NCBI GenBank assembly: GCA_000442125.1
Contig: KE546985.1
Coordinates: 310,001-374,000 of the forward strand
From: Opeltia flavorubescens
Lineage: Eukaryota > Ascomycota > Lecanoromycetes > Teloschistales > Teloschistaceae
Length of the DNA stretch: 64,000 bases
Direction: 5' to 3'
Shown here: positions 6,006 through 58,058 of the stretch, in pieces
Layout: every line of letters starts with the position of its first letter
How positions within the stretch are numbered: the first letter of the stretch is position 1
The notes under the pieces: model-generated
What the model was told of the DNA's origin: nothing
The model's input: only the letters and a program-made list of their open reading frames with translations
The model's database searches: none
Position numbers and translations under genes: made by a program

Positions 6006-6775
6006 TCAACGGTGAGGAGCCATGTATCTTTTCCCTGACCGTGACTCATCGTTGCTGGACTGTATGTCCGTTGGATTTCCTCCATGATCTAAATGCCTTG
6101 AGGATGCTTGGCAAGACGTCCCTATGCAACTAGAAACCAAGGTATTCTTGAGGTTGCTTACATTGGTTGGCCTTGCTATCGTAAGGATAAGTGTAGGCAG
6201 CCCCTGCGCAAGCTTTGAAAAAGGGAGGAGCGGGTCCATCCGCGATGTTCTGAGTTGAGGCAGACAGGGCCGCCGACTTGACTGTTGTATGTGCTGCCTG
6301 GCTGTTTGAATAGATCGATGTTGTAATCAGAAAATGCTGTGCCCTCGGAAGCGCATGTGATGGGGACAGAGTAGCTATCGAGATAGCCGACGTCGATATC
6401 AGGCGGACCAATAAGGCTGCCTTCAATATTACTGCTGCGATAGTCGGTGTTGGGTCCAAAGCTTCCTGCCCGTCTAATTTGGAAAGCGGATCGGGTAAGC
6501 GAGTTGTAGGAGAGGATGGTCGCTGCCAGATTACCTACCGGAGCGGGGCCGCCAGCATTGGAAAGGAAGGATATCGAAATCGTCATGTAATCGGTTGAGC
6601 CATCGGCGCCTGTGATGCTGACGGGGTTTGGAGTACTCGTGACTGGAATGGAATCAGAAGCAGGTGTCGAATGTCCGTCTCCGAGAGTCACAGTCGCGGC
6701 CGCTGGGCAGTTGAACGGGCTCGCAGCTATCAGAGCCGCAAGGGCCAAAATAGCAATATGACAAATTTTTTTCAT
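6006..6775 (-). pseudogene. Secreted thaumatin-like protein gene, reading frame broken
   Basis: ATG at 6775 starts a typical signal peptide (MKKICHIAILALAALIAASP), followed by a mature domain rich in Ser, Thr and Gly. DIDVGYLDSYSVPITC corresponds to the conserved thaumatin-family stretch before the first acidic-cleft strand. FFKACAGAAYTYPYD corresponds to the family's C-terminal FxxACPxAYSYAYDD motif. The similarity continues across about three reading frames within 250 bp, ending in a Cys-containing tail (SSCIGTSCQ) and a TGA near 6006, so the copy appears broken unless the assembly has indel errors. Thaumatin-like proteins are secreted, disulphide-rich and glucan-associated in other fungi; the role here is inferred only. 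A low-complexity His-rich frame continues to 5782 and might be the old 3' end. Family call moderate. Confidence 0.5.
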
Positions 6776-7481
6776 CTTGTGGTTGAAGGGGCATGAGGAT
6801 CGTCAGGGTCAAATAGTTTCGGGGCCGTCATTGGCTTTTGTGGTATTTTGACGAGTGCGTCAGTCTATGGATGCTTCGTGTTTGGTGAGTCTCTGGCGTT
6901 TACGGTACGCTGTGAAGAAGATATCGTGGTTGAATCGGCCTCTCGCTAGAGAAATTGAGATGATGGATTGGGGGTGGGGAGGGCAATCCGCGGAAAAGCG
7001 CGGTCCAAAGGGGAACCCATATCGCGGCATCATGTTTCACACCTCACGGCCGTCCGGGGGACGCGGGCGTACTCTCGGGTATCGACCATTGTGGACGAGA
7101 CGTGTAGCCGGACGCCGTCATCCCAAACAATCCCTTCCGAGAGGCATTGGATACCCGCTTCCCAGAGTGATCGAAACACACATCCGCATGCTTTCCAATC
7201 GCAGCGTGATGTAGTACGATCCTTTCATAGCAGGTTGTAGCCGAGAGCGTGGATTGTGAATGTTGAAAGACTGTTCGAGGTGCAGGTTATATATATCATG
7301 AAGGCCGACGCGGTGCAGTAGTATATGCAAATCCATAGTGAATTAGATTGGGCTTGGAGTTTTCCTGGTAGAGTAGGGTAGAGTAGGCAATTGAAGCGAC
7401 TGGCGTACGAGTCCGAACAGGCCACGTTGGTGAAAACGAGCGAAGCGAGTAGAGCTGTGAGCAAAATTATGATTATACAAA
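6776..7481. other. Intergenic, nothing firm
   Basis: Overlapping open frames on both strands (6855-7240 +, 7225-7481 -) have no family resemblance, and those on the minus strand run through the adjacent Helitron, so I do not call genes. The strongly basic-then-hydrophobic frame seen on the minus strand near 7500 is Helitron sequence. Confidence 0.4.
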
Positions 7482-7799
7482 CTAGGTAAGCTCGACGCCT
7501 TCGGCGCCGAGCAACCCAACGCAAGGGTCCTGCGCCAAGCTTGTTGCTGGTTCCCCAGATCTTTGCAGTTGAATAGCACATTCAATTTTCGTCCGAGACT
7601 AAAGCACAATAACTTGTTTTAAAGAACATGACGTGCGCTTTCCGTGCATATACTTTTCATATAAACCCGATAAGAGTTGGTAGAATTATTCACGTGCAAA
7701 GTTTGTGTGTACGGGCGCTTTTGATAGGGTGATTTGCACATGGGGTACAATCTTGGCAGGAGCAATTTTCGCGGAATTGTGCGGAACTATTGGTAGAGA
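7482..7799 (-). mobile_element. Non-autonomous Helitron, 318 bp, complete ends
   Basis: Read on the minus strand, the element starts TCTCTACCAATAG (5' TC end at 7799) and ends CTAG at 7485..7482. Five bases before CTAG there is a hairpin: arms 7511..7503 and 7499..7491, 9 bp with one wobble, 3-base loop. The flanking bases are A at 7800 and T (complement of 7481), the A|T target that Helitrons use without duplicating it. The first 245 bp match, with about three quarters of bases alike, the 5' part of the Helitron at 27,080, including the shared cores TTCCGCGAAAAT (as read from the 5' end) and CAAACTTTGCACGT. There is no Rep/helicase frame; it would depend on a master copy. It is far less AT-rich than the 27-kb copy, so it escaped most RIP. 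Confidence 0.85.
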
Positions 7800-8390: not shown

Positions 8391-9081
8391 ATGACGTCGA
8401 GAGCGCCACATGCCTCTAAAGACCTCTTTGACTACGCACCTGAATCACAAAGACTGGACCCCAACACCGTACACTTCGTTTACAATCTCCCCAGCGGTCA
8501 TTCAAGACTTACTAACTTTCAGGTCCCAACGAAAATACAGACGTGTCCAGACTCTCACCGTTATGGATCCCAATACTCGCTCAAGAGACTGTTCACCTGT
8601 CCTCGATATTGTCGCCGAGATGGATCATTGTGAGATACCGGATCGGCACGGGGAATCGAATCAATACTACGTCGATCGCCATGTTTGTCTTTTGCAGGTT
8701 ACTGAAAGAGAGATAGACAGTGAATGGCTATACGAGGTCCTTAATACGAATGAAGACTGGGATGAACAGATTATCATGCCTGCTTTCAGGCGATTTAGAG
8801 TCGGACGGCTGTCCAACTCCACTGGTGACACGGCGTTTGACTTGTCGACCACCATGAACCAGCTTTCTCGTAAGTCTTTGGTCAAGAACAGGATTCCAAA
8901 GCTAATGAAGTAAGCCACGAGCGATCCCTCCGATCTATCCTCCGCCTTTTACGGAGATTCAGATCCATCAAACGAAGCGTTCGCCACTGGCTTTGAAGAT
9001 GAAGCAGGCTGAGATACAGATAATGAAGCTGACGAGGCTAATGCAGCCGACAATATAACCAAGGAAATTGAAGGAGATTAG
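8391..9081 (+). pseudogene. Unknown gene with in-frame stops
   Basis: A frame starting at ATG 8410 gives 167 codons to a TAA, then continues in the same frame as an acidic segment (ATSDPSDLSSAFYGDSDPS), a TGA, and a further acidic segment ending at a TAG near 9081. So about 220 codons of one frame are interrupted by two stops. Both are explainable as CAA or CGA changed by RIP. The region around LLQVTEREIDSEWLYEVL and NTNEDWDEQIIMPAF looks like folded protein. An alternative N-terminus is the overlapping frame from ATG 8391, and a good branch-point/acceptor (TTACTAACTTTCAG) sits at 8507-8521, but I could not find a donor that joins the two in frame. Family not recognised. Confidence 0.4.
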
Positions 9082-9779: not shown

Positions 9780-12326
9780 CGCTCAAGGGCTCTCCCTCCG
9801 AGATTTTCTGGCATCGCTCGTGACGTTGGTGGCGATATTGTCTGTGTGTCCGTTCTTCCCAAGGATAGGCCTAAATAAATCTAATAAGCCCCATTTACTT
9901 TCTAAGTATAAAGATACCGAGTCGGTATGACTATCTTGTGCCGAAGGACAAGGTACAATTCAACGTCCTCTAGGTGCTATATACTGGACCCTACGTATAT
10001 TCCAGCTTCCCGGTATAATTATCTTACAGCACTCGGGCTCAGACGCTTTCTTCTTTTTTCTATACATTTGCACTCTCCTCACCATTTTTATCAGCCACTT
10101 GGTCGTCACTATACCATGCCTAGTTCCGCTGAACCTACTAGGTGGCAATGATATTGCTGGTGAAACCCAAGGTCTCAACAGGTACAGCTGGGCGGAAGTC
10201 GGGCTCGATCACACCGCGATTTTACTGCGTTGTACTGGGCCTATCTGTTCATGACCTTGCTTGTAATCGTGATTATATATTATAAGATTACGTGGAACTG
10301 TATTTCTACGGTCCCGCCCGTTATTTATATCTGGTCCCATCTATATACCGTCTTTAAGAGGCCGTTAACACGATTCCTATAACCGATATCCTCGAGGAGG
10401 GCCTTCTATATCGGAGGATGTGTACGGTATATCCCCCGGTAGAATACATTCTACGTAGATCAATCGAGATCTCTCTACCCTCTCTGGGAAGATCCGATAG
10501 CGAAAAAAGCTCGCTACCACACTAGAAGTTGCAGAGATCAGCCTCATATTATCGGCAACGAAGTCGTTCCGTAAATATAAGAGTCACGAGGCTGTACAGC
10601 CGAGTGGGTCGGATATCGGAAAGGAGAGACCATTGTAGAGGCGCCACCTGAAGGATAAAGACCGTGATCATATGTATATTTCATAGTAAGGATGCAACCG
10701 GATGCCCGCAATCCCTCTTATCGCAAAAAGGGTCGGTACCATCCACCACCGCTTAGGCGAGCTGGCACGAATGCACAAAGAAATCAGTGTATAGTCGATG
10801 GAGCTGCCCGAGGTCGAGTCAGATAGGAGAGAATCAAGCAAGTATCTACAAATGAAATGCGTCTTTACACGATTCAACACTCAATCTGCCGCGTAGATGG
10901 CCTATCAAACCCTCCTGAACTCCAACCCTCTGCACTCATCCGCCCGATATATCAACGTTCTTGTGTGGGAAGTGAGAAGGAGCACTCTGACTCAACGATG
11001 GTGGAATCGATGTATACGCAGTGGGTTGGTGTGGATCGCCATCGCTTCTCTTCTCATGATGTGGGCGACACCCGTCGCGTTCACAGGTTTCCTGTTCCAA
11101 GTTACTAACCTGGGAGACTCCGTATCGTCGCTTCACTGGAATTCCGACGCTCTGGCGTGGCTGAGTGGGATTTTTCAAGGTGTGCTGCCGCAGTTGGTGT
11201 TAGTAGCACTGAAAGCATCGTTACCGCTGGTCCTGCGGGCTGGCAAGGTCTGTCAACGGAGACGACAGTCAAGCTGTCGCTGCAAATATACTATTTCGTC
11301 GTTCTCTTCCCACAAAACTCTCTCACGCTGTCACTCTCATCCAGTAATCACGGCCATCGCTCAGGAAGTCCTCCATGGCCCAAGATCTGTACCCGCACTG
11401 TTGGCCAGAAGCTTTCCCAAGGCGAGCAACTACATCTCTCCTATCTTGCTTTACAAGGTCTTTCGGTAAGTGCCGCTGCCTTCCTGCAAGCAGGAGGTCT
11501 AACCAACTAGCTGATAGAAATGGGAGAGATAGATAGGTTTACCGGAAATTTTAATAGGGTAATATTCTACCCTCTTTATACGGCCCTCGCATGTATTTAT
11601 AAGACGCTCGCACCTTTACCGACGCCTCCGCTAATTAATCAGGCCTTATATACTCTGTCATCGCTCTTTTAAATGATCCTCCAGTTCAGCGTCGCTACCT
11701 CCAGCCTATTCTATATCGCATTCCACTACAACCTGCTCTACGTATCGGCTTTTCCGTACGATACTGGAAGTCAACTTCATCCCACTGCTTTGAAACGACT
11801 CTCTACGGGAGTGTACATGATGGAGTTATGCCCGATAGGCCTTTTCCCGTCTATTCGCGATGATCAGGGTGTTTTTACCGGCATCGGCCGGGCCGTGGTT
11901 AGGATGATTGCCACAATATTGACTGTTATTTACTGACTGCTTCTGGGAGACATCTTTACCTCAATTCTCAAATATCTGCTTGCCTTTCCGAAAGACGGAG
12001 ATGATGAAGGAGGGGACTCGAATTCAAATCACTCCTCAGCACCTGCGTTCAGTCATTTACGATACCTAGGGCGCACCTGCTATAGCTGGATGGGGCCTTC
12101 TCAGGAAGATCTCCGAGAAAGTATTGACGAGCTAGTACGCAACGAACTCGAGGTGACAGATCGGCTTGGGTATAAGCATGAGGCTACTGACTATCGCAGC
12201 CCTGTCGTCTGGATTCTAAAGGACGACCTGGGAATTAGCGAAGATGAGATTGCCCACGCCAAAACTGCGCTTCAGATATCAGAATCAGCAATGAGTTTAC
12301 AGACCTTGATATCAAGGGGCGCATGA
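9780..12326 (+). pseudogene. Broken CSC1/OSCA-type (DUF221, RSN1_7TM) stress-gated cation channel gene
   Basis: The whole family architecture can be followed in order on the plus strand but across several frames. N-terminal SLRDFLASLV near 9790; TM1 region and PCLVPLNLLGGND near 10110; SWAEVGL then YWAYLFMTLLVIVIIYYK near 10190-10285; the cytosolic linker with GTIHHRLGELARMHKE near 10730; FNTQSAA then MAYQTLLNSNPLHSSARYI near 10870-10950; RWWNRCIRSG and ATPVAFTGFLFQV; WLSGIFQGVLPQ near 11155-11190; FHYNLLYVSAFPYDTGSQ and MMELCPIGLFPSIRDDQG near 11720-11870; and the C-terminal VVWILKDDLGISEDEI near 12210. Family members are plasma- or endo-membrane proteins gated by osmotic or mechanical stress. 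The length (2.5 kb) suits a nearly full gene. Several frame changes and in-frame stops make it non-functional as assembled. Confidence 0.85.
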
Positions 12327-26010: not shown

Positions 26011-27420
26011 CTAGAATAAATTCTAGTAATAAATAAAACTATTAGTTTTTAATAATAAATTTTATTTTACCGATAAATAGTTTTTTAATTGATTTTTATT
26101 ATTTAATATTAATATTAGTATTTTTAACGATTTTATTATAATTTAAAGCCGATTTCGGGTTAAAATAAAATTTATAATTTTTTATAAATACTTTAATATT
26201 ATTTAAATAGTATTTAAATATTTAATATTATTTATTATTATTATAATTAACCTAATAATTAAAATATTAAATAAAAAAGCTTTAATATCTTTAAATATAG
26301 CGTTTAAAAAAGATTTATTCGATTTTAAATTTTTTATTTTTATTTATAATATATAAAAATATAAATATATAATAAAATCTATAGAATTCGCTATTAGAAA
26401 TAATAATAAACTCTAGATATATTATTAATATTATATTTAAAATTTTTATAATAGATTACAAGTTTAAATAACAATTTAATAATTTAATATAGTTAATAAT
26501 TTTAATATTAATATATTTTTATAAATTTATTTATTTGAAAATAAATTAATTAGTAATATATATTATAATATTCTTTTGTTTTTATTATAATAACAATATT
26601 AATAGTTTTAATATTAATATATATAAGCCGGTATTTTTTTATAGCTATAAATATTATAATAGTTTCTATTATAAATCTATTTATAAATTTGTTAATTTTT
26701 AAAATAATCGGATTAATATAATAAATTATCTATATTATAGTTAAAAAAATTACTGGTTTTTTAATAAATATTTTAGCGGGAATTTTAAAAATTAAAATAT
26801 TTTTTAATTTAATAATTTATTTGATATTTAATAAATATAAAAAATATAATATTTTATAAATTTTCATTTCGAATAAATTTTAACTAAATATTTAAAATAT
26901 AAGATTATAAATTATAAAATTATTAAAATCTATTAATATTTATAGAAAAATAATAAACTATAATTTAAAATAGTCTAATATAGCGATATAATAGTATATA
27001 ATAATTTTAATAAATTTATTAGATTATTTTAATAAATTATTAATTTATAAATATTAAGTAATAAAATACTATAGATTTATCTACTAATAATTACAATAAT
27101 TCCGTACAATTCCGCGAAAATCGCCCGATTCGGACGCCAAGATGTCCACCCCCATATGCAGATCCCCCATCGAAACCGCCCGTATACACAAACTTTGCAC
27201 GTAAATAACTCAACCAATTCTTATTGGATCTAGATAAAATATATATATATGGAAGGCGCTAAACGTACGCTTTCTAACGAGCTACTAACAACCGATTTTA
27301 GATAAAAATTGGCTGCGTTATTCAACTGCAAAGATTAGGCGGATAGGCGATCTCCGGCAGCTAAAAAACTGCTTTACGCAAAAATTGAAAAAACCAGCTG
27401 ATTTTTTAGAAAATTTATTT

Positions 27421-27514
27421 ATTAAATAATCTATTAAATAATCTAATAAATAATTTAATAAATAATCTAAAAAATAATCTAATAAATAATCTAATAAATA
27501 ATCTAATAAATAAT
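27421..27514. repeat. 12-bp tandem repeat left of the gap
   Basis: About seven imperfect copies of AATAAATAATCT run up to the first N. The array probably continues into the gap and may be why it was not assembled. Confidence 0.75.
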
Positions 27515-28499
27515 NNNNNNNNNNNNNNNNNNNNNNNNNNNNNNNNNNNNNNNNNNNNNNNNNNNNNNNNNNNNNNNNNNNNNNNNNNNNNNNNNNNNNN
27601 NNNNNNNNNNNNNNNNNNNNNNNNNNNNNNNNNNNNNNNNNNNNNNNNNNNNNNNNNNNNNNNNNNNNNNNNNNNNNNNNNNNNNNNNNNNNNNNNNNNN
27701 NNNNNNNNNNNNNNNNNNNNNNNNNNNNNNNNNNNNNNNNNNNNNNNNNNNNNNNNNNNNNNNNNNNNNNNNNNNNNNNNNNNNNNNNNNNNNNNNNNNN
27801 NNNNNNNNNNNNNNNNNNNNNNNNNNNNNNNNNNNNNNNNNNNNNNNNNNNNNNNNNNNNNNNNNNNNNNNNNNNNNNNNNNNNNNNNNNNNNNNNNNNN
27901 NNNNNNNNNNNNNNNNNNNNNNNNNNNNNNNNNNNNNNNNNNNNNNNNNNNNNNNNNNNNNNNNNNNNNNNNNNNNNNNNNNNNNNNNNNNNNNNNNNNN
28001 NNNNNNNNNNNNNNNNNNNNNNNNNNNNNNNNNNNNNNNNNNNNNNNNNNNNNNNNNNNNNNNNNNNNNNNNNNNNNNNNNNNNNNNNNNNNNNNNNNNN
28101 NNNNNNNNNNNNNNNNNNNNNNNNNNNNNNNNNNNNNNNNNNNNNNNNNNNNNNNNNNNNNNNNNNNNNNNNNNNNNNNNNNNNNNNNNNNNNNNNNNNN
28201 NNNNNNNNNNNNNNNNNNNNNNNNNNNNNNNNNNNNNNNNNNNNNNNNNNNNNNNNNNNNNNNNNNNNNNNNNNNNNNNNNNNNNNNNNNNNNNNNNNNN
28301 NNNNNNNNNNNNNNNNNNNNNNNNNNNNNNNNNNNNNNNNNNNNNNNNNNNNNNNNNNNNNNNNNNNNNNNNNNNNNNNNNNNNNNNNNNNNNNNNNNNN
28401 NNNNNNNNNNNNNNNNNNNNNNNNNNNNNNNNNNNNNNNNNNNNNNNNNNNNNNNNNNNNNNNNNNNNNNNNNNNNNNNNNNNNNNNNNNNNNNNNNNN
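27515..28499. other. Assembly gap, 985 N
   Basis: Run of N lying between two different tandem arrays within the Helitron. The true size is unknown. Confidence 0.99.
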
Positions 28500-28575
28500 A
28501 AATAAAATAAATAAAATAAATAAAATAAATAAAATAAATAAAATAAATAAAATAAATAAAATAAATAAAATAAAT
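28500..28575. repeat. 9-bp tandem repeat right of the gap
   Basis: About eight near-perfect copies of AAATAAAAT immediately follow the gap. Confidence 0.85.
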
Positions 28576-30116
28576 TGAAAAAATTAAAAAAATTAATAAT
28601 AAATAGAATTATAAATTAAATAAATAAAAAAAAAATTTAAATAGAAAATTATATTTATATAATATTAAATTATAAATTTAATTAACTATTATTATAAAAA
28701 AAATTAAAAAATAAAAATATAAAAATAATAAAATAAATTTAATATAATTAATAAATATTTTAAATTTAATATTTTAAAAGTATAAATAAATAAAAAAATT
28801 AAATAATTAATTAATAAATAAAATATAAAATATATTTATATAAATTAAAAATAAATATTATATAATTTATTTATAATTATTAAATATATACTTTAAAAAT
28901 TTATAAAAGAGAAATTTTAATTCGCCGCTGCAAGCGGCGAGTCTACTAGTCTTTAATAATTTAAATATTTAGCGTTATAATTAATTAACGAATTTCTTAT
29001 TATAATTTAAAATTATTATTTATAATATCTTTTAATTTATTTTTAATAATTTATTTTATAATTATTTAATATATTATCTATTGTTTTAAATAGTTTTTTT
29101 TAATATATAAATAATTATTATAGTAAATTTATTTATTATTATTATATAAAAATTATTTTTTTTATATAATTTTAATAAACTAAAAATAAAATCAATAGTA
29201 AATATATAAAATAGTTTTATCGGAATAAATACTAGCTATAATATTTTATATAAATAATAATAGAATATTTAAAAAATTTATATAGCTTTATTAATATATT
29301 ATATATTAAAAAGCTTTTTATTAAACGTTTATATATATATATATATAATTTAAATAGTTTATTGTATTATATATTAGCTACAATATTTTCTTTTTATATT
29401 TAAAAATATTATTAAATATAAATTTTTTTTTATTAAAATAGAATAACGCGTTAATAATATAATAAAAAATTTAAAATATTATTATTAAATTTTATATTAA
29501 TTTTAGTTATTTTTTTAATTTTAATCTAATAACTTTTTTTAATATATTTATTAATTAATTATATATAAAAAATTTAATTAATACTTCTAATAATAACAGC
29601 GATTAATATTATTATATTATAATAAAAATTATTTATTTTTATATTTCTAGATAAATATATATTAATAATTTTTATTTTTTTAATATCGATATAAATAACT
29701 ATATTAGCGTTTAAATTATTTATTAAATTAAACTTATATATAATAATAATAAATTATATAGTTCTTTTATTAAATATAAAAATTTAAATAATTATAAATT
29801 TAATAAGATTATATCGCCTTTTATTAATATATTTAATATATATAAAAGCTAATATTTTATAAGTAATAGTATATAGCAGTTATTTTAATAAAAATTTTCG
29901 ATTATTTAAATTTAATATATAGTTTATCTATTAATAAAAGCTATAAATATTAGTATTTAATTTTAAATAAATATTCGCGATTATATAATAGTTTTTTTAA
30001 AAAATAAAGTTTATTATTAATATATTTTCTATAATCGAATAAATTATATATAGTATTTATAATAGAAGTTATTTAATAATTTTTTATTATAAAAATTAAA
30101 AAATTAGTTTAAAAAA

Positions 30117-30313
30117 TATATAAATTTAAATTATTAAAATAAATAATTTATAAAATATTATATATAAAAAAAAAAGAACTCGCTACTAAATAAATATATA
30201 AATTATACCTATTAATTTTTTATATAAAATTAATTACTAAACGAATATTATAAAAAAATTATTATTTTAAATTTATATATTTATTTTTTAAACTAAATAT
30301 ACTAATATTATAA
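30117..30313. repeat. Family B left LTR
   Basis: Direct repeat partner of 35903..36102. Edges approximate. Confidence 0.65.
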
Positions 30314-33300
30314 TAATAGCTTCTTTTTTAATATTTTAAACTCTATAAAAATAATTTATTTAGATAGTAATAAAGGTCGCTAGCGGTTAATAAAAAGAAA
30401 ATTAAAAACGAAATAAAATTTAAAAACTATTAAAAAGTCTTTTAAAAAAATTTAAAAAAAAGTTCTAATAATTAAAATATTATTTTTATATTTTTATATA
30501 TTAATTTAAAATATAATTTTATTATAAATTTAAATTCGCGATTTTCAAACAAAAATATTCAAATAAAAATATATAGAATAATATTATTAAAAATTTATAA
30601 TAATTATATATTATAATAGTTATTTATTTCAATTATAATATTATAACAATAGAATTTAATATAAAATATAATATTAAAATTATTATTTAATAATAAATTT
30701 AAATATAAAGTTTTAAAAATTTATAAAAGTATTAAATATAAAAAATAGCTAATAGTTTTTTAATATTAATAAAGTTTTTAATAAAATTTAACTATAATAT
30801 ATTATAGTCTTTTTATTTAACTTAATAATATAACTAGTTATATTAATATAAAAAATCTAGAATATATTCTAGCTTATATATTTTTTTATTATCGATTTTT
30901 ATAAACGGTAATAATAGAATTATTTATTCTAAATAAAAGTTATTAATAATAGATTTTTATAAAATAAAATAAATATATAACTTTAAAGATATATTTAAAT
31001 AATAAATATAAAAGTTAATAATTTCGGATATAAAATAAAACCTATTATATTTATAATCTAGCTTTTTTAAAAATCTATATATTTTAATATTATAGGTATT
31101 AAATTGAATAAAATTACTAAAAATAAAGTCTAGTATTAACGCGCGGCTATTATTAGTATATTTAATATATTTAATTTATATTAGTTTTATTATAAAATAA
31201 AAATATTTAGTAATTTTTTTTATAATATTAATAAATTCGTTTATTATATTAGTTTTTTTATAAAAAATATCTAGACCGGAAGTATTAAAAGGTTTTAAAC
31301 CTATTTAAAAATAAAATCTATAGTTAATAATAATTAAATTTATTATAATAGTTTTAAAAATACAATTGTTTATATTAAATTTATTAACTAATAATTATTT
31401 AATTTTATTATTCTATAAATAGATAATATATTTTTAAAAATATTATTTTATAATAATATTTAAACGTTTAATTTAATTATCGATTTCGGAGTAAAAAATA
31501 TTAAAAAAAATTTTAAATATTTAAGTTTTTTTATTAATAGTTTTCTAAAATCGATTTATAAATAAAATATTTTAAATAAAAATATTATTTTTAAATAGAT
31601 TATATATTTTTTAAATATAATTTTTAAATAATTTAATAAATTTTTTAATACTATTAATTATATAATAAAATATATAATAGTGTATTTTTAATAAATAATC
31701 TATTATTATTATAATTATATTATATTTATTATTTTTTAATAATTTATTAATAAAATTTATCAAAATATTTTATTAACGCTAGATAAATATAAATAAAAAC
31801 TTTAATATACTGATTTTAAATTTATATTTAGATTTATTTTAAATATAAATTTAATAGTTTCGAATATATTATATTATATATATATAGTTTCAAAACTATT
31901 TATAGCTTTAGTCTAATAATTTATAGATTTTAGCTCTTTTAAAATAGTTAATAGTAGGATAATCGTAATATAATTAATAACAGTAATTTTTTAAAAGTTT
32001 AGAATTAGAAATAAATAAACGGTTTTAATAATATAAAAATCTATTTCGTTTTTTATATTTTATTAAAAAGATATATTTAAGATATATAGTTTTATTATAA
32101 AAGAATTTAAACGTTTTTTATATAAAAAAATCGTTTTAAAAAATTTTAATAATAAAATTTTTTAAAAAATATAAATAATTATTATTTTTATTATTAAATA
32201 TTTTAAAAATATTAAAAATATTTTTATATTCCAAGTTTAAATTATTAATAGTTTTTATAGAAATAATATCGATTATTAATTTAGGTTTAATAAAAATTTA
32301 CTTTTAATATTTTAAATTTAATATTTTTTTTAAAAAAAATTTTTAATATATTAAATTAAAATATTAAATTTAATATTTTATTAATTTAAATAATATTTAA
32401 TTTTAAAATTATTATAAAAAAAAATTTAAATTTATTAGATTTACAAACGGTTAAAAATTTTAATAAATATAAAATATTTAAAATTTTTATAATTAATAAA
32501 AATAATAAAAATATTTAATATTTTTTTAAATTTAAATTTTTATTATTTTAAATACTAGATAATCGTTTAAAGTTTTTTATTATAAATTTTATAGTTAATT
32601 TATTATATAATTATTTTATAGAAAAAATAAATAATAAATTTAAAAATTCTATTATTATTATATTAAAAAAGTACTTTTTTAATAATAATATTAAAAGTAT
32701 TAGTTTTTATAATATTTTTTTTATTAAAATTATAATAAACGAAAATTATATTTAAATTAAAAATTTTTTTTAAAATATTAAAAGTTTATTAATAACTAGT
32801 AATTTATTAAAAAAATATATTTTTATATATAAATTTCTAAAAGGGTTTAATAATAAAAGCGAAATTTTTAATAAAATATTAATAAAAATTAGTAAATTTA
32901 ATAAAAAATAATATTTCTTTAATATTTTAAAGATTATTTTAATTTTAAATAGTTTTAATTTTTATAAAATCTATTTTAAAGTTTTTAATAATAATAATAA
33001 AATTAATATATTTAATTTAAATAATATAAAATTTATATTTAATAATATTTATTTATAAATTAATATTTTTAATTATTATTTATAATTTTTAAATAAACTA
33101 TTTATATTTTTTTAGATTATTATTATAAATAAAAATATTATTAATATAAATAGTATAAAAAATTTTAAAGTATTTATAAAAAATATTATTAATATATTTT
33201 TAAAAAAAATTTGGGCTATTAAATAATTTAAATAGTAATACTAGTTATTTAAATAAATTATAATAAATTTTTATTATTATTTTCTATTTGTATTTTTTAA

Positions 33301-35902
33301 CGAGATAAAACTTATTAAAAATAATAATAATATTTAAATTAATAACAATTTTAGCTTTATATAAATAATCTAGAATTTTCTATAATAAAAAGATAAAATA
33401 ATAGTTTTTTTTAATAATTTCGTTAAATTTATAATAATCGATATAAAATTAAAAATTTCTTTTAAATTTTTTAATAAATAGTATAAAAGATAAAATTTTT
33501 AAAAAATTATTATAGATAAACTTTTTATTAAAATTTTTTTAAAAATTTTTTAAAATATAACTAATTTATTACAGTTTCTATTATAAAAAAAATTTTTAAA
33601 TAAAAGTATATTTCTTATTAATTTAATTTTATAATTATAAAAAGATTTTTTAAAAAATATATTAGTTATTTCTTTTAAAAAAGTTTCTAAAAGATTATAA
33701 TAATCGATAGAATAAATAAATTAAAAATCTATTTTAAATTTATTAATAAAGGCTTTAATAATATTAAAAAATAATACCGTTATTAATATATAATCGATAA
33801 ATTTATAGTTTATATAGTTATAATTATTTTTTAAAACTTTAGCGTAAATTATTAAACGAAGTAAAATTTAAAACCTTCGAGTAAATATAAATTATAAAAG
33901 TTTAAGTTTCTTTAAATATTTATTAATATTTATTATTAAAAAAATAAAAAATTTATTATCTAAATTATATACAAGGGATATAAAAGATACTAGATCTATT
34001 TATTTAGTATTTAAAAGTTTTAAAAATAAATTTAAAATATTAAATAATTAAATAAATAGTTTTTTATAAACGGGCTTCAATATATTTTAATATTTTTTTC
34101 AATCTAATTAATAGAGTTTTTTAAATAATTTTAATAATAATAATTACTTTTAAATATAAAAGAGATTTTTTTTAATTAATTATAAAATTATATTTATTTA
34201 ATTAAATATATTCGAAAACTATTAGATAATTTAATTTAAATATTGCAAAAAAAAATTAATTCGATATAATCCTTTAAATAAATGAAAATAAAGTAGTAAT
34301 ATTTAATATAAAAAACAACTTTACTATTAATAAAACGAAAATTTTTATTATATTTTAAATAATAAAAATAAAAATAATTATTACGCGTATAAATTTAATT
34401 AATAAAATTAATAATAAACTTTTTTATTCTTAATTATTGTATAAATAAAAAATATAAAATTGATTATATAGAATTCTATTATAATTAATAAAAGTTTATT
34501 AATTTTAAATTTAATAGATTTATTATTAATTATATAAATAATTTATAAAAAAAAATTCTTTAAAAACTTTTAAAAGCAATTTAATTTAAAAATTAAATAT
34601 TTTTTAATTTTATTATAAAATTTATATTCAAAAAAAAAAGCTGGTTATATTATATTTAATAGCTATTATAAGCGGTTAATTAAATATAAAAGGTATTAAT
34701 AGAATATTATCTATAATATATATAGAATTTAAAAATAAAACGTTATTATTTTTTATTAATTTAAAGCTTTTTATTAATAGTAAATATAGATATATTTATA
34801 GCGTTTCTTTTATAATTAATAGTAATAACGGTTTTAATAGCGATTTTAGCGGTAATAATAGTAGTAATAATAAAAATAGAAGATAATTATTAATTATTAT
34901 TACTAAAGCGCTAATTACTAAAAGTTTTATTATATTATAAATTCTAAAACTAATAATTAATATAACGATTTATAATTTTAAAAATATATTTCTATTTAAT
35001 TTAATAGTTAATAAAAGAAAGTAAAATAATTAAAAAACTATTAAACTCGCGGTTTAAACTATAAATTAAATAATAGTATTTAAAAATTTTATTAATTTTA
35101 ATAATAAATATAAACTTTATAAAAGAAGCTAAATATTTTATAAAAAATTTATTTTTTTATTATAAATATTCTAGCTGAATTTAAATATTAATTTTATAGT
35201 TTAAATCGCCGAAAATTAGTTTTAATTATTTTTTAATATTTTTAATATTATTAAATTCGAGATTTTAAATATAAAATAGAATAATTCAATTAATAATATC
35301 GGTAGTATATAAACAAATATTTTATATTTAATTATATTTTATTTTATAGTAATTATAATTAGTTAAAAATTTAGCGTTTATTTATTAATACTAGCTATAA
35401 AATTTCACGCGGTTCTTTTTAAAAATTTTAGGGTCGAGTTATTTAAATATTCTCTATATAATAGTAGTAGTAGTAGCTATAAATATTTATTTTACAAATA
35501 ATTTATTTTAAATAATTATTAGTTATATAATAATTTTATAATATTTAATATATAAATATTAAAAACCGGTTTAAATAGCGATTAAAGATTCGATATATTT
35601 ATTTTTAATATAAATAAATTTAAAAACTTTAATTATAGCCTATTTAAAAAAATTAATAAATTATTATAAATAATTAAAAGTAATTATACTATTATAATTA
35701 CTAAAAATAAAATTTTAAAAAAGTTAAATTAAATTAAAATATTTAATTTTATTAAAAATCTTTTTAAATTTATTGTAAATTCTTAAAAAATAAATAAAAG
35801 TTCTTTTAAAAAAGTTATAATTCGCTATTTTTATAAAATAAATACTAGTTAAATAAAAAGATATAATATAATATTATAAAGTTAAAAGTATTAATTACTA
35901 AA

Positions 35903-36102
35903 TATATAGATTTAAATTATTAAAGTAAATAATATATAAAATATTATATCGAAAAAAAAAAGAAAAAACTTGCTATTAAATAAATATATAAATTATATCT
36001 ATAGGTTTTTTATATAAAACTAATTATTAAATAATTATTATAAAAAAACTATTGTTTTAAATCTATATATATATTTTTTAAACTATATATATTAAGATTA
36101 TT
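35903..36102. repeat. Family B right LTR
   Basis: Direct repeat partner of 30117..30313. Edges approximate. Confidence 0.65.
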
Positions 36103-37612
36103 ATATTTCTAGTATAATAATTTTTAATATATTTTTTAATAATTTATTTAATTTTAAAAAAATTTATAATAATATTAATAGAATATTTAATTTAATAATA
36201 AATTTAATTATTATTGCTATTATTAAAAGTAGTTTTCTATTATAATCGGAATATAAATACTAATATAAAATAATATTTAATTTAAGTATTAAATTATATT
36301 TAATCTATTAATATATTTTTATTAATTTAAATATCGCGCGTTTTATTTTAAAAAATAAAAAATAAAAAATTAATTATAGTATTATATTAGTAAAATAGTT
36401 TTATAATAATATATAAAATCTTTTTGAATTTTTTAACTATTTTATATTTAATTATAATAAAATCTATTAATTAATAAAAGCTATTTTAATTATTTCAAAA
36501 CTATTTGTTAAAAATTGATTTATTAATTATTCGGCTAGTAGTTTTTATATAAATTTTAGCTATTATAATATTATTAATAGCTATAAATTTACTAATTTTT
36601 AATTTAATTCTATAATAGTAAAAGAATAATTTTAAATAGAAGTTATTAATAATTATTATAAATAATACGCTAATTATTTTATATATTAAATTTGTTTTTA
36701 ATTAATAAAATTTACAAAACTATAAAAAAAATTTAGTATTAATATATAGTAAAAAATATTTTCGGCTGATTTTTTTATATATAATTTAAATATATAAATA
36801 AATATTTGAATATATAAGAAAAAGTTATTTTAAAATAGCTAGTATATTATAAATTTTTTATATTATTTATTTTTTTTTTATAAAGAGTTTAATTTTAATA
36901 TTTCGCGGTTTTTATTATTATTATTCGAGATATTAAACTAATTATTTTTTTTTTAAAAAAAATTTATAAATAATTTTAAAATTAATTATTATACTTTTAT
37001 TTAGAATTAATATTTAGATTCGAATATTAAAATATTCGATAGTATTTATTATAGAAATAATTTTAATATATACTATTATTATATTTTTTATTTTTATAAT
37101 AATATTATTAAAATATTTTAAATAAAAATTTTAAATTTAAATATTATTAAAAATATAATATATTTATTTTATTCAATTATTATAATCTATAAAAATAATT
37201 ATTAATTATAAAATTATATTATATAATTATTTTACTTTATAAATAAAAATTAAACTATAATATATTAATAATATATATATTTTTTTATATTTTATTTCTA
37301 TATATTATTTAAAAGAATATATATTATAATAAATATTATATAATTTTATAATTTTTATAAGCTTTTTAATACTATCTAAAAAAAATAAATTAATATTATA
37401 TACTTTTGGTTTCTATTTAATAATAATTAATATAATTATTAAATTTGCTAGTATAATAATTAATTAATATTAAAATTTTTATATAAAAAATTCTAGTAGT
37501 TAAATTAAACGAGCGTTTACAAATAATTATTTAGTGAAAAAAATTTATAATTATTATAATAAATTATTTATATTTTTAAATTAATTCTATTATTATTATT
37601 ATAATAGAAATA

Positions 37613-37820
37613 TATTATAAATATATTATAATAGCTTTAAATATTATATATATATATATATTATTTATTACGCTATAATATTTTATTATATTATAGTAAT
37701 AAAAAACTATATTTACCGTTCTAGAAATTACTATTAATATTTGTAGTAGATTCTCGGTAAATTAAATCTATAATTTTATATAATCCAATATTTAATTTAT
37801 TATAATATATATTTTCAATA
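37613..37820. repeat. Family C left LTR
   Basis: Direct repeat partner of 45476..45682, the clearest LTR pair in the window because the central TCGGTAAA segment survives in both. Confidence 0.7.
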
Positions 37821-40800
37821 AATAATTGTAATTTATTTATAGTAATAATAAAAGATATTATTTAAATTTTTTTTTATTAAATTATTAATCTTTTAAATAT
37901 TTAAACTATTAAATTTTTTTAATTTATAATTAATTCTATTATATTATTATTTTTTTTATATTTATTTTATTAATAATTTAGTTTTTATTTTAATTTACCT
38001 AATCAAATATATTATAAATATTATTAAAAAATTTTATTTTTTATTTTTATTATCGCTTTATTTTATAATTAATATAATTATAAAATTAAAATTTAATTAT
38101 TAAATTTTAATCTTTTTATTAAATTTTTATTTAAAATATTTTTTTTTATTATTTTTTTATTTAATCTCGATTATTTTTTATTATTATTTTAAAAATTTTT
38201 TAATATTTTAATTTAAATTCTCTAATTAATCGGTAAAAATTATTAAAATTTTTATTATAACGGTATTTATTTAATAAATTTATTAATTACTTTAAATTAT
38301 ATTATCTATTATTTTATTAGTATATTATTTTAACGATTTTTTAACTTTTAATTATAGATATATAATTTTACTAGTTCAAATATTTATTATATACTAGTAT
38401 ATTTTACTATTAAATATTATTATTTAAAAAAATTAAAAAATTTTTATTACTTTAAACTTTTTAATTAATTAAAAAACGTTTAATAAATTTGAATTATTTT
38501 ATTTAATTTTTTAAATAAACTTTTAATTATATAAAAATTAAAAAAATAATCAAAATTTTTAATATTACAATAATTAAAATTTTTTAATATTTATAATATT
38601 TTTTTCTAGAATTAAATACTAGTAATAATCTTAGATTATTATAAATCGAAGAATAAAATATAAAAAAGTCTAAAAATACTAAAAATTAAAATTAAAATAT
38701 TTAAAAAATTTAAAAAAATTAAAACTATTAATTAATTATTTAATTAAAAATAATTTTTTATTTAATTTTTATATAAATTTAATAAAAAATAATTTTAATA
38801 ATTTTTAAAAAAATAAAAATTTTTATATAAATTATTGTAAAAATTTAATATTTCCCTTTAAAAAAATATTAAAAAAAATATTTTAATTCAAAAATACCTT
38901 TAATAGATTCAATCCGCTATTAATTATAATAGCGAATAATAGTTTTTAGTTTATAAATAATTAAATTCCACTATTTTTTATTTTTTTATAAATATAATAG
39001 AATTAAATATCGATTATTATTATAAATCTATTAGTTATAATAAATATATAAAAGTTATTATTAGCTAATAATATCTTTATAACTTTACTAAATATTTATT
39101 AATAGTTTAAAAATATCGATTTCTTTAATTTAAATTTTAATATTTAAATTATAAAAATAAAAAATAGTTCAAATATATACTATAATATATATAGTTTTAC
39201 TAATTATTTAAAAATTAAATCTATTATTATTAATATTAAACTATTAATTAAATATTTAAAAATAGATTTTTTAAATAAAATAAACGAATAATATATTATT
39301 TAATTTAAATTTATTATATATAATAATTTTTATAATAATTTTTAAAATATTATAAAATAAATTAAAATTTATTAAAAAAATTATTTATATTATTTAAAAA
39401 AATTATTTATATTATTTAAAAATATTAAATATATAATAAAAAATATATATAATTAAAAAAATTCTATAAATTTTATTTTTTCTATTATTTTAAATATTTG
39501 GAATACTAAAATTATTATTATTAAAAATATTTAAATATTGTTTATATATAAATATATTACAAGATATTTATTAAAAAAATTTATTATAATTTATATCTAT
39601 ATTTTTAGTATTAGTATTATTAAATAAATTATACTTTTATAAAAAAATATAATATAATATTTATAGATAATTATAAAAATAATTAATTAGTATATTATAT
39701 TACAAATAAAATATAACCTAATATATAAATTAAAATTAAAATTAATATAATATAAATAATTTCTTTTTTATAGTAATAATATTTATAATATTTATTTTTA
39801 TTATAAATTTATTATCTATAATAGTTAATCTAATAATTAATATATTAATAATTTTTACAATAATTAATAAAGTAATGAAATTACTTATAATTATTATTAA
39901 TAATAATATTTTAATTATATATTCAACCAGCTATATATTTAAATATTAATTGAAATTAAAATAAAATAGCTTTTTAATAGTAGCTAGTAGATTTAAATAA
40001 AATAAACAATAAAAAGTATATTAAATTTATTTAATCTTCTAGAATTTATATTAAATTTTAATATAAATTTCTAAAATTATAATTAAAATTTATTTATATT
40101 TAGTAATAATTATTTTTAATATTTCTAGACCTATAAAAATAAAAAAGAATATAAATTTATAAATATATTAAATATATCTTTAAAAATAAAAAATAAGATA
40201 AAATAATTCGAAAATCTTTAAAAGTTTTTTTATTAAAATACCGATTAGTAAAATTATAACTATAAATTTTAAAATTTATATAAAAATTATAATTATATTA
40301 TCTATAAATATAATAATAAATAAAATAGCTATTTTAATAAAATAATTAAAAATAATTTTATTTCTATTAAATAAATTATTATAATTAAAAAATATAATAA
40401 ATATTATAAAAAGTTTTTTTTTCTAATAATACGCTTTATAAATATTTTTATTAAAGAATTTATATTTAAAATTAAATAAAAAAAATATTAAAAATTAAAT
40501 TTTATACTTTAATTTCTAATTAAAATATATTTATTTTTAAATATACTTTTTTAATATTTTCTATAAAAATTATTAAATTTATAATTATAAAATATTAAAA
40601 TAATAAAAAATATATATTTAAAATATCTAAATTTATTATTATAGCTATTAATTTTATAGAAAATAAATACAAAATAGCTATATTTTAAAATCGACTATAT
40701 TATAAATTTTATAAATAAAATCTTTTTATTTTTTTATTTATTTAATATAGTTTTTAGATAAAAACCTATTATTTTAAATATTAAAAATCTAAAAAAAATT

Positions 40801-43800
40801 TGGTATAATATATTTAAATATATAATTATATTTATATATATTTCTAGTAAAAATAATTATATAATATTTATTAAATAGATAGTTTATATTATTAAATACT
40901 TTATTATTAATTTTTTTATTAATATATATATTTTTATATTTAAAAATATTTTTATCTATTATAGCTAGAATATAATAATTATTAAAATATATTAAAATCT
41001 AATAATTATAATTATTTCTACTTTTAAAAATAATATTATAAATATTATTATATATTCTAATACTAATATAATAATATTATTATATATAAATATAACTATT
41101 TTAATAATACTATTATATATAAATATAACTATTTTAGTTATTAGAAATAAATTATAATTTATATAACTATAAAATAATAAATAGGATTTTCTTTTAAATT
41201 TAAAAAATTCGAAAAATTTAATATTTATATCTATTTAATAAATAAAAAAATAAGTTATATTTTAATTTAAAATAATATAGATTTTTTTATTAAATTATCG
41301 CGTAAAACTAAACTAAAAAAATTATAAATAATAATTTTAAAATTGTAAATTACTATATAATATTATTAAATAATATATTATTTATATTAAAACTTTTAAA
41401 ATAATATTTAAATTAATTTCAAAAATTAATTATTATAAAAGCTATAGCATTTTTAATAATTATTAACTTAATTTTTATAAATAATTTTAATTTAGATATT
41501 AATTAATTATTTATAAAAAATATTATTTATATTATTAAAATAATTATTTATAGTAATTAAAATATTATTTTTATTATTAATTAAATAGATAATAATAATT
41601 TAAATTTATAATATAATATTAAAAATATTATTATTTTAAAAGAAAATTTTATAAATATTCTATTAATAGAAAACTTATATAATATTTAGAAATCTAATTA
41701 AATAAAAATATTTTTAATTAAATAAAAAAATAAAAAAAATATTAATTAAAAATTTAATAAATTATATAACTAAAAATATTTAAAATAGATATTTATATTA
41801 GTATTTTTCTTTTTTCTTTATTTTATAGTATAAAAAACGCTTAAAAATAATTTTATTAAAAATTGTATAGTAATAAATATCCGAGTTTTTAATAAAACTA
41901 TTATATTAAATATTTATTCTATATTTATATAAACGAAAATTTTAGTATTTATTCGTTATATAAAATATATTACTATAATAAATTTTATAAATTTTTTCTA
42001 TTAATAATAAATTAAATTTAAATACTAGTATTAATTTATAATACTAAATTATAGAAATTGATAAATATTTAATATATTAATTATAAAATATAAAAGTATT
42101 TTTATATATATCTAATAAATAATTAATATCAATTTATATATTTATCGCGCGTTTTATTATATATATATAGATAATATTATTATATTTTTTAAAAATTTTA
42201 TAAAATATATTAAATATTTATACAATATTTTTAATATATTTAATTAGTTAAACCTTTATTTTTTTTAAAAAAAAATATTTTTAGAATATCTATTAGTAAA
42301 TCTATAAGATTAAAAAGTAAATATTTTTAAATTTATTATAATAAAAAAAAAATTTAAAATAATATTTAAATTAATATTTTTTATAATTTTAAAATAATTA
42401 AAATATTATTTAAAATTAATCGAGTATTTTAAAAATTATATTCTATATTATACTATTATAATAAAACTATTATAATAATAAAAAATATATTTTTATTTAA
42501 TATTTTAGAATTTAAAAGAAAATATATAAAAAAATACAATTATAAAAATTTATTTAATTATATTTATATTAAAAAAATTTAATATATTTTATTATTTATA
42601 AAAATTTTTTTTTGTTTAATATATTAAAATATTTTAATAAAAGATTTATATTTTATATAAATTTTAGTATTAATAAAAAGTTGAATTTTATAATATAAAT
42701 ATATATTATAATATAATTAAAAAAAATTATTTATTAATAAAATTTTATAATATTTTATTATTTAATTTATATAATAATTTATTAAAAAATTCTATTTTAT
42801 TTAAAAAAAATAATATATAAAAGAATAAAAATAAGTATATTAAATTTAAATAAAAATTTAAAAAATCTATTTTATTTTTAAATAACTTTTAATAGATATT
42901 AAAATAAAATATTAATTTATAAAATTTAAAATAATTAATATAATTTAAACTATTAAAAGAATTTATTATATAATTAAAATTTTAAAATAAAAATTATTAT
43001 TTATATAAATTATTTAACGGTTATATTTATTATTAAATAATTAAATATTAATATATACTTTATTAATAATATAAATTTATATTTAATAAAAATATTTAAA
43101 TATTTTTAATATTATTATTTAAATATTCGCTATAAATTTAATAAAACTAATATAATATTAAATATATTTTTTCGTTTAATTAATAAAAGAAATTATAAAT
43201 CTAATAATTAAAAAATATTAGATTTATTATTTTTAATTAATAATTTTTCTATAATATTATTTAAAATATAACTAGAATTTTATTAATATTTTATTTTAGG
43301 CTATAATAATAGAATAATATAGATATAAATTTAATTTATAAAATAAACTAATAATCGATTAAATAGAAATATAATTAAACTATTATATAAAATTATTCAA
43401 AATATTATTTATTCTAATAATTTTAAAAAAAAATTTAAACTATATATATCTAATTTTATAAAAAAAATTTTCTTTAATTTATATATAATAAAAGAAACTA
43501 TTTAAAATATATTAGAATTTTTAAATAATTAATAGAAAATATATATATATATATATAATAAATTAAAAAAATTATATAATTTTATATAATACTATTTTTT
43601 AGATAAATAAAATATTTAAATATATATTTTATAGTTTTTAATAATCTATTTTTACTTTTATTAAATTATTTTATATTATAACTATTAATTTTATTTTAAA
43701 TTTTTCTATAATAAAAAAAATATTAATTATATACTATTAATTATAAATAAATTTCGTAAAACCGTATTATTTTTTTTAAAAAAAACAATATTTTTTATAA

Positions 43801-45475
43801 TTTAATAATTAAAAAAATTACTAGAATATTTTTTAAATTTTGATTGAAATATATTTAAAGTTATTATTTTTAATAAAAATTATAAATTTATATTTAATTT
43901 TTAAAAATAAATTTTTAAAANTTTTAAAATAAATTTTTTTTTTTATTATTTAATATCTTTAAATTAATAATATATCGGAAAAATTAAATTAAATAATAAA
44001 AATCGCGATATATTATTATATTATAATATTTTTTAATTTTAAATATTAGCCTTTTATATTATTATAAATATTTATAATATTAAATAATTTTATTAATTAT
44101 AGTTTTATATTGAAAATATTTATAAAAATTATTTTTAATTTTAAAATAAAAAAAATATAAAATTTAATATATTTAAATTATTTAAATAATATTAAAAATA
44201 ATACTTTTAGTAAAAATACTATTATTTTTATTATATAATTTATTATAATAAATATATTTCCTGTTATAATATAAACGTAAAACTAGTAATAAAATATAAA
44301 TTTTAATATTTTATTACCGTTTTAGTAATTTATTTAATTTATTATATAATTAATTACTTTTTAAAATCTAATTATTATAGCGGAATACCAGTCTATTTAT
44401 ATAAATAATAAAAAATATTATTATATTTACTATTATAAAAATAAAAGATTATTATAATATTAAATATATAAAAAAGTTTTTTTTTATTAGAAATTATATA
44501 CTTTTAAAATTTTATAAAAATTATTTTATTTTAAATTCCTTTCTATTTTTAAAAAAGATAAACTAGTAATTTATAGAGTTTTTTAATATTATTAAATATA
44601 TTAATTAACTTATATATAAATTTATACTATTCGAATAAATAAAAATTTATAATATTATTTCTATTATATCTTTAAAGCCTATTATTAATTCGATTAGAAA
44701 TCCCTTTAATAAATATTAAATTTTTATACTATTATTAATTATTAATAATAATAATAAATTTAAAATTAAACGAATTATTATAAAATAAAAGATTAATAAA
44801 AATAAAAAATAAAATATTTAATATTTAATATAATAAAAAAGCTATAAATTTAAAAAAAATTAGTAGATATTTTTATAAAAGCTCGAATATATTAAAAAAT
44901 TTATTTAAAATAATAAAAATATATTTAATCTAATTAGAATAATATTAATTTTAATTTTATTATTAATTTTGTAAATTTTATAATAAATTTTATATATTAA
45001 TCTATAAATTCTATTTATTTAAAACTTTTTATAAATTTAAATTCCTATATATATATAAATTAATATTTTTAATATTTTGAATTATACTAGATTTATATAA
45101 TAATTAGAATATATAAATTAAAAAAGCTATATAAAAAAAAATTCAAAATATATTTATTTAATATATTTAATAATAATATTTCTTTAATTATTATTATATA
45201 AATTCTTTTATAAAATAAAAATCGATTTATTATTAGTAGAACTATATATTATAAACGATATTATTATATATAATAATTTTTAGTAGTTAAATTAAAGGTT
45301 TTTTATATAATTTATATAAATTTATAGATAAAAAATATAAAAAAAAAGTTACTAATATATATATAGAATATATTCTAATATATTATTTTAGCGGATAAAA
45401 ATATACTTTTTTATTTATTTATTTATTTTTTTATTTATATACTTCGAAATAAAGTATTTTTTTAAAAAAAATAAT

Positions 45476-45682
45476 TATTATAAATATATTATAATAGCTC
45501 TATATATTATATATATATATATAATATATTGCGCTATAATAATTTATTGCGCTATAATAATAAAAAACTGTATTTATTATTTTTAAAATTACTACTAATA
45601 TTAATAGTAGATTTTCGGTAAATTTAATCTATAACTCTATATATTATAATATTTAACTTGCTGTAGTATATATTTACTACAA
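45476..45682. repeat. Family C right LTR
   Basis: Direct repeat partner of 37613..37820. Confidence 0.7.
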
Positions 45683-46441
45683 ATTTTTATTATATTTTAC
45701 GGCGGTATAATATTTATTTTCGATTTTAGTAAATAGAATAGATTAAATTTAATAATAAAAAAAATATTATTTTATTATTTAAATATTTAAATAAATTTAA
45801 TAATATTTTTAAATTAATTTAATTCTTTTAAATTTTTTAATAAATTTAAAAAATAAAAATTTCTATTTAGTTTTAATATAAATTTAAAAGCTTTTATTTT
45901 TAAAAATTATAATAGTATTATTATAAAAATAATTTATTTTTTTAATAAAAATCTATAAATATTCGTTTTTATTTATAGAATAAATAATAATAAAAATTAT
46001 ATTATATTAAATTTCCCGATTATTAAAAAATTTCTATATTAAAAAATAGTATAAATTTAGATTTCTTTTATAAATATAATTAATATAAATTTTAAAAATA
46101 ATTATAAAAGCTCGATTTTATTTTAAAAATCGTTTAATATACTTTTAAAATATTTTAATAAAAAAAATAATTATAATAAAAGCTAATATAATAATAAAAT
46201 CGATTAAGTTATTTAAATTATTAAAAAAAATATTTAAAATTTCGCTAAAAATAAAAAACTTGAATATAATTTAATTAATTCTATTAATTAATTATTTATA
46301 CAAAAATAATAATTTAATAAACGAAAAAATACTAGATTTATTTAAAAAACTTAATATTATATAATAATTAATAGTATATATATATATAGAAATCAATAAT
46401 ATTAATTCCTATTAAAACTACTATTAATTACTATTATTTAC

Positions 46442-46635
46442 TATATTATAAATATAAAATAATAATACTATATTAAAAATTGAAAATTGATTATTTATAA
46501 AATTTTTATTTAAATAAATCCAGGCGCTAAAAAACGCTAAATTTAACTGGATAAATATATTTAAAAGGCTTTTTTCGAGTTATAATAGCTATTTAATTTT
46601 ATTTATTCTAATAGTTTTTTATTTATATAATATAT
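46442..46635. repeat. Family A copy 1, right LTR
   Basis: Best-preserved A-type LTR: GCTAAAAAACGCTAAATTTA, then GATAAATATATTTAAAAGG, GAGTTATAATAGCTATTT and TTTTTTATTTATATAATATA. Same orientation as the other three A-type LTRs. Confidence 0.7.
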
Positions 46636-47110
46636 TTGTAATAATATTATTTAATAGTATTTATTCTATTTTTAATTATTTTAACTTTAAAATTCCGTTA
46701 TTTAATCGATATAAATTGCGTATCGAATATAAATAGCCTGTATTTAACGAAAATTTTTAATTCAATTTTTATATTTTAAATATATAGTTTTTATTTAAAT
46801 CGATACGCGTTATTTTTAAAAAGAAATCTCGGGTAAAATTAATAAAATCTATTAAATTCTATTATATATTTGTAATTTTTATATTTCTATTTAAAATATA
46901 ATATAATAATTTTTTTTTATTTTTTTTTTATTAAAATAAATTTTTATATTTTATTTTTTTATTTTATAAATAATAATAAAAAAAATTAATAATATTAAAA
47001 TTGTAAATTATACTCGAAATTTAAAATTTAAATCTCTAGAATAAAATTAATAAATTGAATTTAATCGAGTCGAATATTTAGTTTATTTAATAGTTATTAT
47101 CTCTATATAT
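46636..47110. other. AT-rich spacer right of family A copy 1
   Basis: RIP-like DNA with a few GC patches (ATCGATACGCGTT near 46,800). It does not continue family A. Possibly a fragment of another element. Confidence 0.4.
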
Positions 47111-47214
47111 TATTTTCGTTGCTTTCGAAAATAAAGCAAAAAATCAGCTACGAAGGCTGATAACCTGAAATCCTCTTCGTGTCTTAGATAATAATTCCAG
47201 AATACAAGGAACAA

Positions 47215-47481: not shown

Positions 47482-47487
47482 TGTTTT

Positions 47488-51894: not shown

Positions 51895-52090
51895 ACTATA
51901 TAATAAATATAAAATAATAGTATTATATTAAAAATAAAATATTATTTATTTATAAAATCTATAATTAAATTAATATAAACGCTAAAAAATATAAAATTTA
52001 AATAGATAAATATATTTTAACAAAAATTTTCGAGTTATAATAGCTATTTAATTTTATTTATTTTATTAATTTTTAATTAATATAATATAG
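51895..52090. repeat. Family A copy 2, left LTR
   Basis: Contains AACGCTAAAAAATATAAAAT, GATAAATATATTTTAAC, GAGTTATAATAGCTATTT and AATATAATATAGCTATAAT. Edges approximate. Confidence 0.7.
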
Positions 52091-58000: not shown

Positions 58001-58058
58001 ATACGAATATTAAAAAGAAAATATTTTATATAAATTATTTTTATTTACTATTATTTAT

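Follow-up and report, generated by a model that had tools for sequence, protein, structure and literature searches.

A probable non-autonomous Helitron of the canonical type and its longer sister copy in a fungal DNA window

Anatomy of the short element

The 64 kb stretch of DNA analysed here (the window) very probably contains a complete Helitron, canonical (Helitron1-type) and non-autonomous, at positions 7482-7799 on the minus strand, one of two such elements; the other spans 27080-28949 and has a middle part of A-rich tandem repeats. The pair credibly adds a new member to a familiar class of mobile DNA and introduces nothing new in principle. The anatomy of the two copies fits the tested features of canonical Helitrons, that is, their ends, target and hairpin together with the absence of a TSD and of terminal inverted repeats, and does not fit the target of Helentrons or Helitron2. 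The 5′ terminus TC is preceded by A in both (A followed by TCTCTACC in the short copy and by TCTACTAATA in the long one, where the 5′ end was placed by homology), and the 3′ terminus, of the CTRR form, is CTAG followed by T in both. Each copy lies between A and T, and neither the TT target of Helentrons nor the TTTT followed by T/C of Helitron2 was found at them.

Read on the minus strand, the small element extends over 318 bp from 7799 to 7482. It begins with TCTCTACC (7792-7799), a motif that alone is expected about once by chance, and ends with CTAG (7482-7485), followed by a T that corresponds to the A at window position 7481. A sequence-only reading of this DNA had proposed a 318-bp element with A and T flanks at this place, and its ends, flanks and coordinates turned out to be exact. 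No TSD of 2-20 bp was detected at either copy, and a comparison of the first 12 bases revealed that only 1 of the 12 terminal bases matched the inverted 3′ end, again in both copies. The short copy is devoid of coding capacity, as no stop-free frame is longer than 55 codons. Its neighbours are two ORFs, at 6176-6802 (minus strand) and 8395-8913 (plus strand), neither of which matched a Pfam family at E = 0.01.

The 3′ subterminal hairpin, identified by a hairpin scan and by folding against shuffled sequences, is located at 7490-7512 on the minus strand and consists of a 10-bp stem with one G.T pair closed by a GAA loop (GCTCGGCGCC-GAA-GGCGTCGAGC). The full stem stops 4 bases before CTAG, and its 8-bp core, the part common to the sister copy, ends 6 bases before it. 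In the sister, the 8-bp stem stops 5 bases before CTAG; therefore, the earlier description of a hairpin five bases before CTAG was right to within one base. The last 60 bases of the short copy folded with z = -2.99, and 2 of 200 shuffles folded as well; for the 3′ end of the sister (28893-28952) z was -4.73 and none of 200 shuffles folded as well. The 5′ ends of the two copies contained no structure above that of the shuffles (z = -0.35 and -0.40).

Immediately beyond the 3′ terminus of the short element, at 7360-7480, the word GGTAGAGTAG occurs twice in tandem and GAGCGAAGCGAG once. By eye, these words resemble Helitron-like ends and possibly belong to a second, older element.

The sister copy at 27 kb

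The longer sister copy, 19 kb away from the short one, occupies 27080-28949 on the plus strand, from TCTACTAATA after A to CTAG before T, and measures 1870 bp including a gap of 985 N (27515-28499). Its 5′ part (27080-27335) is homologous to 7559-7799 according to BLAST and global alignment. This part is followed by a 12-bp tandem array of TAAATAATCTAA at 27423-27514 (7.7 copies, plus strand), which is cut by the N gap, and, beyond the gap, by a degenerate, strand-asymmetric A-rich tandem repeat, (AAATAAAAT)n, at 28500-28857 (plus strand). The 3′ hairpin lies at 28922-28940 (plus strand) and has an 8-bp stem and a GCA loop; scanning, comparison and folding identify it as the homolog of the hairpin at 7490-7512. 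The CTAG terminus follows at 28946-28949, with the T at 28950.

A scan of both strands of the window for a GC-rich hairpin before CTRR and T, with a score of at least 13, returned only the sites at 7482 (minus strand) and 28949 (plus strand). The sequence-only reading had named no 3′ end for the 27-kb copy. Because the site at 28949 is the only other one of its kind, lies downstream of the sister's body and has the same orientation, we took the sister to be 27080-28949, and we infer that these positions are the ends of one element joined across the N gap. The 5′ end was placed by homology only, since the first ~14 bases (A followed by TCTACTAATAATTA) align poorly, a 7-base gap being needed, and do not match the 5′ motif used in the scans, ATC[TC][CA]TA[CT][CT]. 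A loose match to this motif at 26729 (plus strand) could pair with the hairpin at 28949 too, although loose matches occur at chance level in the surrounding AT block (9 seen, ~9.2 expected). Within that block (26000-47000), GC-richer pieces comprise three in 27098-27381, one at 28909-28959, which holds the hairpin, and two short and weak ones at 30361-30388 and 31122-31153.

Relationship between the two copies

The two copies, found within 64 kb, share ~245 bp of 5′ body and ~30 bp at the 3′ end. BLAST within the window aligned element bases 8-165 of the short copy to 27094-27259 (167 columns, 77% identity, E = 1e-28) and bases 211-241 to 27305-27335 (31 columns, 87%, E = 3e-5), so that the related body covers element bases 8-241, or 7559-7792 on the minus strand. 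A global alignment of the 5′ parts, which includes the poorly matching stretch between the two BLAST pieces, yielded 179 identical positions in 249 columns (72%). The ~245 bp of alignable 5′ sequence that had been reported as common with 27,080-27,330 are therefore real.

At the 3′ ends, the core hairpins TCGGCGCC-GAA-GGCGTCGA and TCGCCGCT-GCA-AGCGGCGA, together with the next G, agree in 15 of 20 bases, a value reached by 215 of 200,000 random GC-matched hairpins. Six of the eight stem pairs compared are identical; in the other two, both partners differ between the copies and still pair (G.T to C-G, C-G to T-A). Such compensated pairs, here in two sequences only, are suggestive of selection on the stem, though not proof of it.

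The correspondence of the ends has its limits. Hairpins, CTAG followed by T, and the A and T flanks are alike; the 5′ termini differ in their first ~14 bases, and only 21 of the last 30 columns are alike. The proposal of a small non-autonomous family made in the sequence-only reading is supported for the Helitron identity and for two members, which are linked by their 5′ bodies, by hairpins with two compensated pairs, by CTAG before T, by the A and T flanks and by the lack of TSD and terminal inverted repeats, but the wording "matching ends" was too strong.

These differences bear on whether the two copies form one strict family. Both could be Helitrons, with the long copy a chimera that obtained its 3′ end via end bypass, a documented process (PMC4778049), or from another related Helitron. 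The rule used for Pleurotus, in which a family is defined by an identity of at least 80% over the 3′-terminal 30 bp (PMC4289320), would place the two copies in separate families or subfamilies, given 21 of 30. Moreover, the 77 bp after element base 241 have a counterpart in the sister only for hairpin and tail, and the stretch from base 241 to the hairpin is unshared. On the other side, the two compensated stem changes and the common CGAG..TA.CTAG tail suggest a single ancestral 3′ end. With 72% identity, the 5′ parts have diverged to a similar degree, which may reflect equal ageing at the two ends. We regard a chimeric origin as less likely than not; it is compatible with the preferred explanation of two non-autonomous canonical Helitrons.

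Chance controls

The chance occurrence of the termini was assessed with 60 dinucleotide shuffles per compositional block, using thresholds that were set after seeing the hits. A hairpin followed by CTAG and T at the observed score appeared in none of the 60 shuffles of the GC-normal block and in none of the 60 of the AT block; at a looser score it appeared in 3 and 1 of the 60, respectively. With CTRR instead of CTAG, the shuffle means for the GC-normal and the AT block were 0.03 and 0.02 under the strict and 0.27 and 0.35 under the loose setting. The 5′ motif ATCTCTAC was seen once in the GC-normal block, where 1.1-1.2 occurrences were expected, and thus carries no weight by itself.

Given this chance rate of the 5′ motif, the shared ~245 bp might alternatively be part of a dispersed repeat of another kind, for instance the remnant of an LTR element or a DNA transposon, with Helitron-like ends that match by chance. 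Among the 60 shuffles of the GC-normal block, one indeed contained the full pair of strict motifs at the looser hairpin score, the alignment is poor over the sister's first ~14 bases, and the 3′ interiors of the two copies differ. However, the hairpin-CTAG end before T at its observed score was absent from all shuffles of either block, such ends occur twice in the window, beside both of the related bodies and in matching orientation, and the two 3′ ends resemble each other down to the compensated pairs. Taken together, a chance combination of this kind is very unlikely.

The compact size, the strong hairpin and the lack of a long ORF would also suit a tRNA-derived SINE or a structured RNA gene, but no tRNA was found with the program's bacterial settings, no Rfam family reached its gathering score and no TSD is present, which leaves this interpretation with a negligible probability.

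Searches for further copies and for a RepHel partner

Beyond the 27-kb copy, BLAST in the window returned only short matches with E of at least 0.057. A RIP-blind search, in which C was read as T and G as A, gave a score of 162 for the 27-kb copy within the window and next-best scores of 51 with the short element and 53 with 27080-27405 as the query, both lower than the top scores of the reversed queries that served as controls (61 and 57). When a 17-base segment of the body was searched with a tolerance of 3 mismatches, it was recovered at the two copies already described, and 2 of 100 shuffles had as many matches. Exact patterns built on the core common to both copies and on either end had no match in viral contigs, a non-fungal collection. 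In bacterial and archaeal genomes, likewise non-fungal, the shared-core pattern matched once, in a Mucilaginibacter MAG; we attribute this match to chance because the similarity is only 20 bases long.

No Rep or helicase family was among the Pfam hits up to E = 0.01 in six frames of 30.5 kb of GC-normal sequence (1-26000 and 47000-51501), a search in which a split Rep or helicase domain could be missed because frames were cut at ~13000 and between exons. With their canonical ends and compensated hairpin, the two copies constitute usable queries for the family and for its helicase partner.

Elsewhere in the window, a DUF7924 domain is encoded at 1-330 on the minus strand (E = 4e-31), and a gene with RSN1/PHM7-type channel domains lies at ~9960-12290 on the plus strand. 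Positions 866-1372 contain direct repeats (~932-1259, 74-80% alike) in a minus-strand open frame that corresponds to a repetitive, HQD-rich protein.

Base composition and RIP

The short element has a GC content of 46%, close to the 46% and 44% of its flanks, and its RIP indices (TA/AT of 0.90; CpA+TpG over ApC+GpT of 1.22) indicate no RIP. This copy had been thought to retain the ancestral state of a family whose other members are mutated, a view that found no support. Among the 70 differences between the copies, transitions toward A/T account for 25 in the 27-kb copy and for 21 in the 7.5-kb copy (p = 0.66), the remaining 24 being transversions. Changes in CpA/TpG context made up 9 of the 25 in the 27-kb copy vs 1 of the 21 in the 7.5-kb copy (Fisher p = 0.013, a rough value, since the changes were counted in a single global alignment that is poor in some columns). 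The homologous 5′ block of the sister (27080-27335) has 39.5% GC and retains 15 CpA and 8 TpG in 256 bp; each 300-bp flank of the long copy has 1 CpA and 1 TpG. Considering the balance of transitions, the remaining CpA and TpG and the mild context excess, the 27-kb copy may be lightly RIPped at most, and neither of the two can be taken as the ancestral form.

Since RIP acts on C in either strand, a pronounced AT skew is not expected from it. At 28500-28872 the AT skew amounts to 0.32, whereas the highest value among 297 overlapping windows of the same length, taken as background from the AT blocks, was 0.16. Therefore, the AT-rich middle of the sister is better explained by degenerate, A-rich tandem repetition than by RIP.

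Two AT-rich blocks, 26000-47000 and 51500-64000, have ~8% GC and are almost free of CpA and TpG (123 CA+TG sites in 29000-47000 and 83 in 51500-64000). Their GC content is far below the 36% given for the AT-rich isochores of Leptosphaeria maculans (PMC4352252). The loss of C in other contexts within these blocks seems to go beyond CpA-directed RIP. Together with the kinds of protein domains encoded in the window, the AT blocks point to a fungal host. Between the blocks lies a GC-normal island of 3.7 kb (47400-51100) with coding sequence on the minus strand, which includes a protein with a Ulp1/C48 peptidase domain (47488-48918, E = 4e-5) and a second ORF (49124-50158) without a Pfam family.

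As is known from work on Neurospora, RIP recognises only repeats above a size threshold, and the pair described here lends itself as a natural experiment on the escape of very short elements from it. One could imagine a canonical Helitron1 family that persists as forms of less than 400 bp, below the RIP size, with a longer sister in an AT block whose ends stay almost unmutated around a strand-asymmetric A-rich satellite, in other words, an element that escapes RIP and spreads tandem repeats. At present we consider this scenario unlikely.

Mechanism and comparison with known rolling-circle elements

If the two copies move like other canonical Helitrons, a RepHel protein encoded elsewhere would nick at the 5′ terminus, where TC follows A, and its helicase would unwind the element and peel off one strand. 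The subterminal hairpin would make the helicase pause, the strand would be cut after CTAG, and a circular intermediate would form and insert between A and T. We infer all protein steps of this scheme by analogy. In Helraiser, as described in PMC4778049, TC was joined to A and CTAG to T, the hairpin acted as terminator and circles were formed. The present finding leaves the known Helitron mechanism unchanged.

In 2007, Cultrone et al. reportedly described a Helitron in Aspergillus nidulans that contains the xanA promoter; the likeness to our case is that of a Helitron in an ascomycete. The Helentron-derived DINE-1/HINE elements carry internal tandem or microsatellite repeats and in this respect are similar to the 27-kb copy. 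According to PMC4067079 and PMC5148889, Helentrons insert into TT, whereas here the target is AT. The same papers give subterminal inverted repeats for Helentrons; in the present copies, a comparison confined to the first 12 terminal bases found 1 that matches in inverted orientation.

According to PMC5148889, fungal Helitrons are relatively little studied, and most of those in Pezizomycotina are held to be non-canonical, a point that speaks against the canonical reading of the present pair. FoHeli/Helitron2 of Fusarium oxysporum are likewise fungal rolling-circle elements that include non-autonomous forms, but they have asymmetric terminal inverted repeats and other terminal sequences (as given in PMC5148889), whereas the present element has canonical ends. 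HELPO1 and HELPO2 of Pleurotus ostreatus, as described in PMC4289320, share with it a fungal host, a subterminal hairpin, ends of the CTRR type (CTTG in HELPO2) and insertion into AT, and one HELPO subfamily has intact non-autonomous copies. They differ in belonging to a basidiomycete; as far as descriptions can be compared, a length of 3.9 to 10 kb is given for one group (PMC4289320).

The spacing of the hairpin allows a further comparison. A distance of 10-12 nt from the 3′ terminus is given for canonical hairpins in PMC5148889; the 4-6 bases of the short and the 5 bases of the long copy are shorter if counted to CTAG, and lie near the 5-8 bp set in HelSearch, as reported in PMC4289320. Helibat1/Helraiser of bats is an example of a canonical Helitron (Helitron1) and its non-autonomous derivatives; compared by description, the palindrome of Helraiser lies 11 nucleotides upstream of the end, whereas the hairpins reported here stop 4-6 bases before CTAG.
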